A stretch of 64,000 bases of DNA from a virus. The notes beneath the pieces were generated by a model. The model saw only the letters and a list, made by a program, of their open reading frames with translations, had not been told where the DNA came from and made no database searches. This document shows, in pieces, positions 12,830 to 16,486 of this stretch; positions within the stretch are counted from its first letter, which is position 1; each line of letters begins with the position of its first letter. The stretch covers positions 1 through 64,000 of the IMG/VR virus record IMGVR_UViG_3300030090_007212. The stretch is one strand, 5' to 3'. Made by a program: the position numbers and the translations under genes.

Positions 12830-12833
12830 ATCA

Positions 12834-12871
12834 CAAAAAAAAAAGAGGATACTTAAAAAAATATCCTCTTT
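12834..12871 (-). terminator. Intrinsic terminator
   Basis: Minus strand stem AAAGAGGATA (12862-12871) pairs with TATCCTCTTT (12842-12851) across a 10-nt loop and is followed by a run of at least seven T. It ends the transcript coming from the TROVE-like gene and the downstream region. Confidence 0.85.
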
Positions 12872-12897
12872 ATAATGTCGGAATGATGATTCGGCTT

Positions 12898-13122
12898 TTA
12901 TTTAACGTAATGGCCGTCCCTACGGTAGACTTGGTAACTCAGTCCCACTGAATGTCTTTTTTTATTTGTGACAAAACAAAAGGTATGTTTTACAACCTCA
13001 AGGTAGGGAAATTCCCTGTTTAAACCTCCCCTATGGTTGATCCCTTTATTGATTTTGGGTAAAGGGATAATAAAACCTCGGTTTTCAGCTTTGAATTTAA
13101 AGATTTGTTTGCAGTAAATCAT
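12898..13122 (-). CDS. Possible small basic protein, or part of a structured RNA
   Basis: 74-codon frame, ATG at 13122. The translation looks protein-like (basic, aromatic, ends YQVYRRDGHYVK), but its codons use C and G at third positions more than neighbouring genes do (TAC, ATC, CCC, AAC). The same stretch holds many local inverted repeats, such as GGGAATTTCCC and TTATCCCTTTAC/ATAAAGGGAT. It lies between the TROVE-like gene and a strong terminator, with a stop in frame just upstream of the ATG. It may be a coding gene, or the frame may be chance within a non-coding RNA bound by the TROVE-like protein. I cannot decide from sequence alone. Confidence 0.4.
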   Translation of the reverse strand: MIYCKQIFKFKAENRGFIIPLPKINKGINHRGGLNREFPYLEVVKHTFCFVTNKKRHSVGLSYQVYRRDGHYVK

Positions 13123-13306
13123 TCGTTTACATTTAATTGGTATGCGGAATCTGTTTAACAGTTTTTACTAACACTCGTTATGTCCCCCGCCTAAACGGTT
13201 TAATAACTTCTGGTTAGAAGGTTACCATTACACCTTTCTCGTCATCATTGTTGAGTTTTTTAAAGGTTGCTGCAATGATTCCTTTTATACCATTATTTTC
13301 AAAGAA
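13123..13306 (-). other. 184-nt non-coding stretch downstream of TROVE-like gene
   Basis: No start-to-stop gene here. The first 90 nt continue in frame after the TAG of the TROVE-like gene for 30 sense codons. Next comes GGCGGGGGACATAACGAGTG, unusually GC-rich for this genome, then CTGTTAAACAG, an odd palindrome. Candidate leader or non-coding RNA; no known RNA family recognised. Confidence 0.35.
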
Positions 13307-14764
13307 CTATACTGTTATTGGTCGGTATCTAACACCATCTATTGTTTCCATCATAACACTATAAGGAGTAATATCCTTAGCGGATAGGATAGATTTCAAT
13401 ATGGATGGGCTAAATCCCGAAACCAAAGCAGTATTTAACTCATCTTTCTTCACTGGAAAATTATCACCTCGTGAGTTGATATTCCAGAAGATTATGCCAG
13501 GCATTTTATAACCTGCTTGTTCATAATCCTTACGGATCATTTCAATCGCTGACGGGTTAAAATCAGGGACTCTATCCCAGTCATTACCAGTCGCTTGATC
13601 AAATTCCATATCAGATAAAATGAGAATTTTTGTTGGCATCTTATCCTGTGGTACACTATTAGATTGCGCTTGTCTTAATAAAAGATTAAACGTTGCTTCT
13701 AAATTAGTATTCATTCCCCAATCACTAGATCTTAATTGAGATAATCTTTCTTTAAGAGTACCTTGAAGATATTGTAATTCAGGATTAGAAGAAAATGTTA
13801 GGAAACAATCTTTAAATGTACCTTCATTTCTTTCAGAGATATATAACCCTAAAGAAAGTGCTACATCCATACATTGTACATTGGAATTATTTCCAGCTGG
13901 ACATTGCATTGATCCTGACACATCTACCATAGGTAACACAATGTCATTATTATCTTCCATATAGTTAGGTAATGATTCCCATTGTTTTTGACAAACAATT
14001 TCTTCACCACCACAGTAAAGTGATTTAGTTATATCGTAAGGATATAAAGCCCCACTATTAACTTTCGTTTTACCTTCCATAAGGTCCTCCATGTATTTAC
14101 CATATCCTTCCTTATCATTTCTACTGAAAGTTTTTTGATACCTAGATGATGCAAGAGAAGGTAATTTAGAATAATCTATCTTATCCCACTCGTTGGCACA
14201 CATCTTAGTTTCAACGACATTGGTTAGGTTAACCAACAGTTTTCGGAGTTGTTTGGGTGTTACCCTTAACAACTTCCTTAATTTGTTAAATGCCTCACCT
14301 TTGCGTGGCATCCACTTGGCACATAAACCATCTTCGTTTTGTAAAGCGGTTTCGATTAGTTTAAGAGTTTCCTCTTCTAATTCCGTACCTAACAATACTA
14401 AAACATCATCCCATCTTCCATATTCAGGAATTAGAGAAATGTTTTTCTTAACTACTACCGGAGAAAGTTTAACCAAATGAGATAAAATATCTCTAAAGAT
14501 TTGTCTTTCACCAGCACCTCCTCGTACGTCTCTAGCCCAAAATAAAAGTTTTGTCGCTATTAATGAATTGTTAGAATAAGCTTTAGAAAATTTCTCAATT
14601 AACCTCACTTTATCCTTACCTCTCATTGCACCTACGCTGAAGAAAAAGTCCACACAATCATCTAAGGATGATTCGTTAGTAGACATTCCGTTTGCAGTCT
14701 GTGGAGTTTTATTTTCCATAGCTTCTTCCTGAATTTCTAAATAACGTGTGTATGAATTTTCCAT
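13307..14764 (-). CDS. Ro60/TROVE-like (DUF2828) protein with vWA domain
   Basis: 485 residues. The N-terminal two thirds are helical HEAT-like repeats (LLFWARDVRGGAGERQIFRDIL, then IPEYGRWDDVLVLL and AKWMPRKG), typical of the TROVE/DUF2828 RNA-binding ring. The C-terminal third is a von Willebrand A domain with an intact MIDAS, DVSGSM (DxSxS) near 288-293, followed by SDMEFDQA and a final YRPITV. Ro60-type proteins bind structured RNAs (Y RNAs) and take part in RNA quality control; phage DUF2828 members are uncharacterised. It has a canonical host-type promoter and stands next to a cluster of three tRNA genes. The stop is TAG, rare in this window. Confidence 0.85.
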   Translation of the reverse strand: MENSYTRYLEIQEEAMENKTPQTANGMSTNESSLDDCVDFFFSVGAMRGKDKVRLIEKFSKAYSNNSLIATKLLFWARDVRGGAGERQIFRDILSHLVKLSPVVVKKNISLIPEYGRWDDVLVLLGTELEEETLKLIETALQNEDGLCAKWMPRKGEAFNKLRKLLRVTPKQLRKLLVNLTNVVETKMCANEWDKIDYSKLPSLASSRYQKTFSRNDKEGYGKYMEDLMEGKTKVNSGALYPYDITKSLYCGGEEIVCQKQWESLPNYMEDNNDIVLPMVDVSGSMQCPAGNNSNVQCMDVALSLGLYISERNEGTFKDCFLTFSSNPELQYLQGTLKERLSQLRSSDWGMNTNLEATFNLLLRQAQSNSVPQDKMPTKILILSDMEFDQATGNDWDRVPDFNPSAIEMIRKDYEQAGYKMPGIIFWNINSRGDNFPVKKDELNTALVSGFSPSILKSILSAKDITPYSVMMETIDGVRYRPITV

Positions 14765-14805
14765 AGTTTTGATTGTTTTTTAAAGTGTTTAACAAAAGTA
14801 TTAGA

Positions 14806-14836
14806 CAAATATATAACATTAATTTTGAAAAGTCAA
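14806..14836 (-). promoter_or_regulatory. Bacteroidetes-type promoter of TROVE-like gene
   Basis: Minus strand TTG (14834-14836), 20 nt, TATATTTG (14806-14813): a perfect TAnnTTTG. The ATG is 41 nt downstream. An A/T-only tract of about 40 nt lies just upstream, as in an UP element. Confidence 0.75.
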
Positions 14837-14873
14837 ATGTTTTTTTAATTTTTTTTCTTTTTTTTTTAAAATG

Positions 14874-14945
14874 TTGTCGGGGAAGGACTCGAACCTCCGT
14901 TTCATGGACCAAAACCACGCGTCCTGCCAACTAGACGACCCGACA
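14874..14945 (-). tRNA. tRNA-Gln (anticodon TTG)
   Basis: Acceptor TGTCGGG/CCCGACA, anticodon stem CGTGG/CCATG with loop TTTTGGT (anticodon TTG), T-loop GGTTCGAGTCC. CCA not encoded. First of three adjacent tRNA genes. Confidence 0.93.
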
Positions 14946-14948
14946 AGT

Positions 14949-15025
14949 TGGCGGACTGGACGAGACTCGAACTCGCGACCCCCTGCGTGACAGGCAGGTA
15001 TTCTAACCAACTGAACTACCAGTCC
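14949..15025 (-). tRNA. tRNA-Asp (anticodon GTC)
   Basis: Acceptor GGACTGG/CCAGTCC, anticodon stem CCTGC/GCAGG with loop CTGTCAC (anticodon GTC), discriminator G and an encoded CCA, unlike its two neighbours. The spacer to the Gln tRNA is 3 nt. Confidence 0.95.
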
Positions 15026-15032
15026 TTTTTTG

Positions 15033-15104
15033 TACTCCGTAGGGGAATCGAACCCCTGTTTTTAGGATGAAAACCTAATGTCCTAACCCCTAGACGAACG
15101 GAGC
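15033..15104 (-). tRNA. tRNA-Glu (anticodon TTC)
   Basis: Acceptor GCTCCGT/ACGGAGT, anticodon stem TTAGG/CCTAA with loop TTTTCAT (anticodon TTC), T-loop GGTTCGATTCC. CCA not encoded. Seven nt upstream of the Asp tRNA; likely one precursor. Confidence 0.93.
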
Positions 15105-15133: not shown

Positions 15134-15835
15134 TTAAATAGTCAATTTATAACCTACCCCTCTTACAGATTTAAAAAATGTATTGGGGGCGACCTCTCTT
15201 TCAAATATCTTTCTCAAAGATAGGATAACATTATCAATAGTTCTAGTTTTAATGTAAACATCGTATCCCCAAATCTTTTCTAAAATTTCTTCTCGTGAAA
15301 CCACTTCATTACTTTTATCAATTAATAATTTAAGTAACTTAACTTGCCTTTTAGTTAATCTAAATTCATTATCTAAATTATCTGTCACCATAAAGGATTT
15401 AAAATCTATTGTAAAATTACCAATCTTCACAGTATCACTAGTAATATTATTTATACTTTTACCTAATAACTTAATATAATTTTCTATTTTATATCTAATT
15501 TCAGTATAAGGTAAAGGTTTCACTAAATAATCATTTGCACCATACTTTAATGTTTTTATCCGTTTAGATGGGTCATCATGAAAACTAATATATATAATAG
15601 GGGTTATTTGATTTTCTAATCTAATAGTTTGACAAAGATCAATACCTTCTATATCTACTAATTTTTCATCTAAAATTATTACATCAAATTTAAATTCTCT
15701 TATTTTTGACAACCCTTCTTTACCATAAGGGGTGCATACAAATACGTATTTATCGGAATTAAACTCTTCTTTAATCCGTTGGTGTATTTCTTTATCCACA
15801 CCAATAATTAATACCCTGTTTTCTTTATTTATCAT
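15134..15835 (-). CDS. OmpR/PhoB-type two-component response regulator
   Basis: 233 residues. Receiver domain at 1-125: acidic Asp14, phosphoacceptor Asp56 in VIILDEK, Ser84 in YISFHDD, and Lys106 in YLVKPLP, so the phosphorylation site is complete. A winged-helix DNA-binding domain (about 138-233) follows, with RLTKRQVKLLKLL, SREEILEKIWG and RTIDNVILSLRKI...VRGVGYKL, all typical of the Trans_reg_C family. No histidine kinase is present in the window, so it would take phosphate from host kinases or act unphosphorylated. A full response regulator in a phage is unusual. It is 3 nt downstream of the GCDIH gene and may share its promoter. Confidence 0.9.
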   Translation of the reverse strand: MINKENRVLIIGVDKEIHQRIKEEFNSDKYVFVCTPYGKEGLSKIREFKFDVIILDEKLVDIEGIDLCQTIRLENQITPIIYISFHDDPSKRIKTLKYGANDYLVKPLPYTEIRYKIENYIKLLGKSINNITSDTVKIGNFTIDFKSFMVTDNLDNEFRLTKRQVKLLKLLIDKSNEVVSREEILEKIWGYDVYIKTRTIDNVILSLRKIFEREVAPNTFFKSVRGVGYKLTI

Positions 15836-15838
15836 ATA

Positions 15839-16486
15839 TTAATTGTCAAACCAAAAAATGATTCTTACATCTTCGGGTTGCCCTAGTTTTTGTAGTTGGG
15901 GGATGGTAGTGTTAAAAAAATAGGGATCAATGCCACGTACTTTTAAATCATTATCATCCATTTTATTATATTCACTATCTAATAATTCTCTTAATGTAAA
16001 ATAATTATGTGAATGACCATCAATATCCCATTCATCTGACATAGATTTTACTGACATACTCGCATCATCCGGAACACCTTTTATATCGGAATTAAACTCC
16101 GCCCCAATCATAGGATTACTTTGATCTCTAACTCCCGCTAAAATACCAAATAAGGAGTAACATCTTCCACCATAAGGTTGATTAGTGTAAGGATTTCTTA
16201 TCATTCCTTTACTATAAGTATACTCCCATGAAGCATCAGCAGGTGCAACTCTTTTAGGTATAAATTTAGATATGATATATTGTTCTTGTCTATTAGTTGG
16301 TGACTCACCATTTACCCATTTCATTGTAATTTCCCATGCTTCTTCTTCCTCTAAACCAAAAACTTCTTTAAGTTCTTGAGAAAGTGACCATAAAGCATAA
16401 CTATCAGTAAATTCTTCACCAATCACATCCCATTCATTAGTAACTGGATTTCGTTTTTCCGCAAACATATGTATATCACATCCCAT
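15839..16486 (-). CDS. GCDIH-family phage protein, unknown function
   Basis: 215 residues beginning MGCDIHMFAEKR, the start of a family seen in many phages and some bacteria with conserved GCDIH and YSLFGILAGVR segments. Both are present here (GGRCYSLFGILAGVRD near 104-119). The Cys, Asp and His may form a metal site, but no activity is known to me. The final gene pair is tight with the response regulator. Confidence 0.6.
   Translation of the reverse strand: MGCDIHMFAEKRNPVTNEWDVIGEEFTDSYALWSLSQELKEVFGLEEEEAWEITMKWVNGESPTNRQEQYIISKFIPKRVAPADASWEYTYSKGMIRNPYTNQPYGGRCYSLFGILAGVRDQSNPMIGAEFNSDIKGVPDDASMSVKSMSDEWDIDGHSHNYFTLRELLDSEYNKMDDNDLKVRGIDPYFFNTTIPQLQKLGQPEDVRIIFWFDN

Follow-up and report, generated by a model that had tools for sequence, protein, structure and literature searches.

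We found that the DNA analysed here (the window, a 64,000-nt stretch that is part of a 138.5-kb virus record) very probably encodes a phage Ro60 ribonucleoprotein, with a rough probability of 85%: a protein of predicted Ro60 fold, together with an RNA of ~420 nt that carries two tandem Y-RNA-type modules and starts ~15 nt past the Ro60 stop codon. Since some relatives of this RNA close a YrlA-like tRNA domain and others sit permuted in tRNA genes, the window's RNA is, on sequence grounds, a Y-RNA-type partner, and its binding of Ro60 in this phage is a prediction.

The protein part of the putative particle is encoded directly before the RNA:

13307-14764, minus strand: Ro60-fold protein gene (485 aa; DUF2828 and DUF7788; PHROG 850 'RNA-binding protein')
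within 13307-14764, minus strand: vWA domain of this protein, with a DVSGS MIDAS motif

Profile searches with the 485-aa protein gave DUF7788 and DUF2828 in Pfam and 850 in PHROG, and no match to Pfam TROVE (PF05731, the detection profile for one branch of the Ro60/TROVE family) at E 0.001. An AlphaFold model made from 36 relatives (pLDDT 85.8) predicts a ring of helical repeats followed by the vWA domain. We found this predicted structure aligns with Ro60 (2i91) at Z 25.1 over 408 aa (residues 19-465 of the phage protein); the Ro60 chains scored 25.1, 24.7 and 24.7, and non-Ro chains reached at most 10.9, mainly on the vWA part. Ro60 of Thermus phage phiLo scored 15.9 against the predicted structure; this phage Ro60 fold (PDB 9l5y; also 9kop) is alike at Z 15.9-17.2, with ~16% identity, and Foldseek matched the Trove domain 9kop at E 2.6e-8. 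The MIDAS site is intact, with D281, S283, S285, T353 and D385 invariant in the 36 relatives. Because the TROVE/Ro60 identity rests on the fold and PF05731 is unmatched, we word the family claim accordingly: as modelled, the protein is Ro60-fold, not a PF05731 member. Hence, the label 'TROVE-vWA protein' in the preliminary description stands by fold and falls by sequence, which is DUF2828/DUF7788. A literature search for DUF2828 together with phage found no paper.

The gene is preceded on its own strand by these features:

14806-14837, minus strand: Bacteroidota-type promoter-like sequence TTTG-N-TATATTTG
14873-14945, minus strand: tRNA-Gln
14949-15025, minus strand: tRNA-Asp
15032-15104, minus strand: tRNA-Glu

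The three tRNA genes are thus where the preliminary description had put them, before the Ro60 gene (14873-15104, minus strand). As a fixed part of the module, the tRNA cluster did not hold up, since the gene lacks neighbouring tRNAs in the close relative L002 and in several others. A promoter-like sequence similar to that of the window precedes the Ro60 gene in L001-L005; the window contains only 4 sequences of the TTTG-N-TATATTTG type, approximately the number expected by chance.

Two neighbouring genes were also observed. A phage response regulator with a winged-helix output domain (Response_reg and Trans_reg_C) is encoded at 15134-15835 (minus strand), and the end of such a gene also lies directly 5' of Ro60 in L001-L004. 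The protein of 15839-16486 (minus strand) belongs to PHROG 10141, whose function is not known, and by sequence reading a related C-terminus lies directly before Ro60 in L014, L019 and L022. The closest relative (L203, contig QCKH01000004.1, 72% identity) is recorded as a single-cell contig of Prochlorococcus; this host label is doubtful, as the place is the same as that in the IMG/VR virus contig L001, with its Bacteroidota-type promoter-like sequence.

Alignment of relatives divided the RNA into two tandem domains, D1 (13292-13138) and D2 (13133-12874), with a terminator behind them. The clade relatives were drawn from IMG/VR, since phage records gave no blastn match to the RNA. The parts of the two domains are:

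13138-13292, minus strand: RNA domain D1 (whole), first Ro60-module unit plus apical region
13287-13292, minus strand: D1 outer helix, 5' strand UGGUAU, pairing with AUACCA at 13138-13143
13277-13282, minus strand: D1 inner helix, 5' strand GGAAUC, pairing with GAUUCC at 13146-13151
13267-13276, minus strand: D1 conserved strand AUUGCAGCAA
12874-13133, minus strand: RNA domain D2 (whole), second Ro60-module unit with the multi-helix apical domain that it closes
13129-13133, minus strand: D2 outer helix, 5' strand AAUGU, pairing with ACAUU at 12874-12878
13118-13124, minus strand: D2 inner helix, 5' strand GAAUGAU, pairing with AUCAUUC at 12881-12887
13107-13117, minus strand: D2 conserved strand UUACUGCAAAC

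D1 and D2 share a closing module that consists of an outer helix, an asymmetric internal loop (about AAAA or AAAC on its 5' side, two bases on its 3' side), an inner helix of 6-7 bp, and a 5' strand that reads UUGCAGCAA or UUACUGCAA and has a GCAA motif at its end. The strand that follows the inner helix is AUUGCAGCAA or UUACUGCAA in both domains.

The covariance check proposed in the preliminary description showed that the D2 helices are kept by compensatory changes. Across 17 clade members, the 33 pairs of D2 are 99.5% paired with 36 two-sided changes (9.3 in shuffles), and slid controls are 31-45% paired. The outer helix AAUGU/ACAUU of the window becomes GAUGU/ACAUC and GGUGU/ACACC in relatives, and an extra hairpin, AUCCCUUUA/UAAAGGGAU in the window, reads CCACUUUA/UAAAGUGG and CCAAUUUA/UAAAUUGG in relatives. 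Within the clade, the inner helix of D2 hardly changes: one of its six pairs varies. RNAalifold, unaided, recovered largely the same D2 helices.

Two further features lie in or behind D2:

12898-13122, minus strand: spurious 74-codon ORF, overlapping D2 and open only in this phage
12842-12871, minus strand: intrinsic terminator hairpin of 13 bp with a T-run after it (whole, 12871-12835)

The strong terminator announced for the end of the stretch is therefore present. Folding, also proposed earlier, gave -107.1 kcal/mol for 473 nt, better than 100 of 100 dinucleotide shuffles, at a z of -3.1 that is partly due to the terminator, as the shuffles lose this strong hairpin too; D2 folded alone has a z of -1.7. 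Hence, the case for the RNA rests on covariation, not on energy. The stretch had also been called GC-rich, which is true relative to this AT-rich phage (36% vs 29.7% for the window, in the top 3.5% of equal-length stretches) and not in absolute terms.

That the conservation comes from a 74-aa protein gene at 12898-13122, or from decayed gene remnants, is exceedingly improbable. The frame is open in the window, but all 16 aligned relatives have 2 to 9 in-frame stops, 15 of the 16 have frame-breaking indels, and the helices change by compensation; neither Pfam nor PHROG matched the 74-aa product. In relatives with 68-72% protein identity, the stretch is kept as DNA with all reading frames broken. 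Protein-coding evolution of 12898-13122 with no RNA structure, which the preliminary description had set against its own proposal, is thus ruled out by the stops in 16/16 relatives and by the covarying helices.

The Y-RNA-type module is not confined to the window's clade: more distant loci have it behind the Ro60 gene, in one to three copies. A descriptor for the unit, designed on the same data and controlled by shuffles, found 54 units vs 1.3 per shuffled set. The 7-bp inner helix of 24 short units is paired to 98.8%, with 45 two-sided changes vs 10.6 in shuffles (slid controls, 35-49% paired); for 35 units from both sides of the gene, it is 96.3% paired with 82 two-sided changes vs 21.2.

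A covariance model made from downstream units only (R1) and run on whole loci matched directly upstream of Ro60 in loci without downstream units, an unplanned confirmation. A second model (R2), made from the 35 units of both positions, gave 81 matches in 88 phage Ro60 loci, 81/81 on the Ro60 strand and 73 within 500 nt; R2 was trained on many units that it matches, so those matches are not independent, and the upstream matches of R1 are. On 315 kb of control phage DNA, R2 gave one unconvincing match (E 4.1). With model, descriptor or clade alignment combined, the unit is present in 76/89 loci, and among the 13 unit-less loci, L039 and L041 show the module by eye. R1 and R2 miss the window's own units, R2 even over the whole virus record, because their apical parts, of 119 and 225 nt, exceed what the models can span; this miss is not evidence of absence, and the window's case therefore rests on the descriptor and clade covariation. 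Hence, the suspected RNA partner beside the Ro60 protein is corroborated by a covarying structured RNA and by a module near most phage Ro60 genes examined.

Units adjoin Ro60 in Listeria phages P100 and CKA15, E. coli phage finno, Campylobacter phage CP81, mycobacteriophage Winky, Staphylococcus phage S-CoN_Ph3 and Enterococcus phage iF6, with weaker matches in KVP40 and Fusobacterium phage Fnu1. Finno, which has E. coli K-12 MG1655 as its host, carries its units among tRNAs on the 3' side of the Ro60 gene. In Winky, whose protein is annotated as 'Ro-like RNA binding protein', three units are seen by eye behind the gene and two were found by the model. Scans of whole records gave two matches only in P100 and one in the 1.4-Mb genome G002, all beside Ro60. 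Unit positions vary: upstream, downstream or >1 kb from the gene, with up to four or more units per locus. In KVP40 (L192 3939-3996), L056, L174 and L176 (~2892-2969), units abut or enclose the RBS or start codon of the Ro60 gene, which suggests autoregulation. In L142, L148, L150 and L152, the stop codon of Ro60 is separated from the unit by a terminator-like hairpin, and the outer helix of the unit begins within the T-run or immediately behind it. In L035, L043, L046, L144 and L170, TATAAATA-like sequences directly before single units downstream of Ro60 resemble T4-type late promoters; therefore, the units in those loci may be separate transcripts. A T4 Gp23 search of the window's virus record found no match, and its control also matched nowhere.

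These positions bear on the idea that the structured stretch is a cis-regulatory 3' UTR, where Ro60 would bind its own mRNA and set its stability or translation, with no free Y RNA. In keeping with it, no convincing promoter separates the Ro60 gene from the clade RNA, which begins at most 20 nt past the stop codon, and the units at the RBS and start codon in KVP40 and several other upstream cases fit autoregulation. We consider it unlikely nonetheless, given the terminator hairpin between gene and unit in the four loci named above, the units that lie upstream or >1 kb off, and the loci with up to four or more units, some of which enclose tRNA-like domains.

As for the Y-RNA-type partner, its apical parts were compared with known RNAs. 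In the Rfam search of the window, only tRNA reached its gathering score; the loose-threshold matches (L20 leader at E 0.025, the best, others >1) are far below cut-offs and were taken as chance. Neither the Rfam search nor the clade structure revealed a tRNA-like domain in the window's RNA, and because of this absence we did not file it as YrlA.

In several units of other loci, the module encloses a tRNA-like domain in permuted order (T arm, acceptor, D arm), at sub-threshold Rfam YrlA matches (L055, E 1.8e-5; L051, 3e-4; L080, 0.0018). Such matches were counted only when inside a paired module, because neighbouring tRNA genes can also yield them; the sub-threshold YrlA matches in 191/299 Bacillota genomes were rejected as mostly artefacts of adjacent tRNA genes, and bacterial YrlA was used only from beside PF05731 genes (G068, G107, G005). 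There, the layout is the same and the motif is another.

In a strict permuted form (arm3-UGNYAA-arm5, then a GCA motif), written after the first cases were seen, we found 7 cases vs 0 in shuffles. All are in Ro60 loci (S13, Ahp1, phiAS5, L204), within tRNA genes or tRNA-like sequences, and several of these places score as tRNA. The permuted module is a closed hairpin next to the anticodon side, e.g. CAAAC-UGACAA-GUUUG-UAUUCAGCA; permuted places are L193 5872-6114, L197 8322-8435, L200 7860-8130 and L204 2660-2900. When the permuted module was searched for more loosely, 8 cases were found vs 6 in shuffles, a chance level, and this search was discarded.

The tRNA-like heads raise the idea that the RNA, stabilised by Ro60, mimics tRNA or acts as a decoy against tRNA-directed defences, such as the anticodon nucleases of the host. 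Ro60 genes and units do often lie within phage tRNA clusters, several units surround a tRNA-like domain or are themselves embedded in a tRNA gene, and a competitive inhibitor has been considered for Salmonella YrlA (PMC7790460). We nevertheless regard this as improbable for the window, whose RNA is without an evident tRNA-like domain and whose close relatives include some with no tRNAs beside the gene.

Compared with a Y-RNA-type partner of this kind, the YrlA/Rsr system (Salmonella rsr-yrlBA-rtcBA; RF02553) is alike in having the RNA gene beside a Ro60-family gene and in its outer helix, asymmetric loop and short inner helix, and several relatives of the window's RNA close the permuted tRNA-like domain that matches RF02553 below threshold. 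It differs in the 5' strand, UUACUUCG in bacterial YrlA beside Rsr vs UUACAGCAA in phages; bacterial YrlA gave no match with R2; and the window's RNA has two modules. RtcB was not found in the virus record, another difference from the Salmonella operon. The Y RNA/Rsr/PNPase particle of Deinococcus radiodurans is alike in its Ro60 ring, in a Y RNA adjoining the Ro60 gene and, by analogy, in a likely tethering function (PMC7790460, PMC12282133), but the window's RNA is larger and bipartite.

ROOL (RF03087) is likewise a large phage ncRNA of tRNA regions. It is highly improbable that the window's RNA is itself one of the large phage RNAs already known, for instance ROOL or GOLLD: its location in a phage near tRNAs would fit, as would a ROOL match upstream of Ro60 in Listeria phages P100 (L191 4450-5001) and CKA15 (L233 1951-2502; 90.1 bits, E 2.7e-18, just under the cut-off of 99.1), but the ROOL and GOLLD models do not match the window, where no family except tRNA reaches its gathering score. 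The CKA15 match covers CKA15_059-061, by far the most abundant phage transcripts and tentatively proposed as Y RNAs (PMC12282133); the Y units lie elsewhere, at L233 3137-3297, before the Ro60 gene. Hence, the published Listeria data can be re-read: the most abundant phage RNA is within the ROOL match and not in the Y RNA units. Purified CKA15 particles contained the Ro60 protein of this phage (CKA15_055, 57% coverage; PMC12282133), and virion delivery of Ro60 is therefore possible in CKA15.

For the ribonucleoprotein of the window, we infer the following mechanism. The RNA would share a transcript with the Ro60 mRNA, begun at the promoter-like site (14837), or be released from that mRNA by processing, and its 3' end is probably at the terminator (12842). 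The putative Ro60-binding site is the inner helix, loop and GCAA strand, because this module is the only part common to all these RNAs. As it is present twice, one transcript could hold two Ro60 molecules; alternatively, one Ro60 may be held in two ways. The apical parts, or heads, would be the working ends or effectors, above all the conserved multi-helix domain of D2, and may occupy the ring or tether another RNA or enzyme, as has been suggested for the tRNA-like part of YrlA and for the Deinococcus Y RNA with PNPase. For the cellular systems, the models are tethering to PNPase and tRNA mimicry (PMC7790460, PMC12282133). During infection, the particle could serve in surveillance of structured RNA, in decay or in tRNA-related RNA handling.

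Phage Y RNAs near Ro60 are already known as a class. Chen et al. 2014 (RNA 20:1715, cited in PMC12282133) reportedly described them in mycobacteriophage and other phages, and at least one Y RNA per species is said to have a tRNA-like domain; the window clade differs in its conserved multi-helix domain without a tRNA-like part. Apparently new are the phage module consensus, the large non-tRNA domain and bipartite RNA of the window clade, and the permuted tRNA form: searches of Rfam and the literature turned up no account of a consensus for phages, of such a bipartite RNA or of permuted modules within tRNA genes, but some of this may be in Chen et al. 2014.

More tentatively, and with rather less than even confidence, we propose that phage Ro60 RNAs are one modular family, in which a common closing module, predicted to bind Ro60, carries interchangeable heads: an A-rich loop only, a permuted tRNA, a whole tRNA gene with a circularly permuted module inserted, or the large conserved non-tRNA domain of the window clade, which would send Ro60 to a target that no cellular Ro60 system is known to have.

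Ro60 is found in hundreds of phages, with 681/50,697 phage records matching; in a jumbo-phage survey, a TROVE protein was present in a small subset (PMC7824862). Most of the phage proteins carry only the annotation 'RNA-binding protein' or hypothetical, and their RNA partner reaches the cut-off of no Rfam family. With the consensus module, phage Ro60 RNAs become findable, and the interaction of Ro60 with Y RNA becomes testable in phages of hosts like E. coli K-12. The variety of heads amounts to a natural experiment that can show to which targets Y RNAs tether Ro60.
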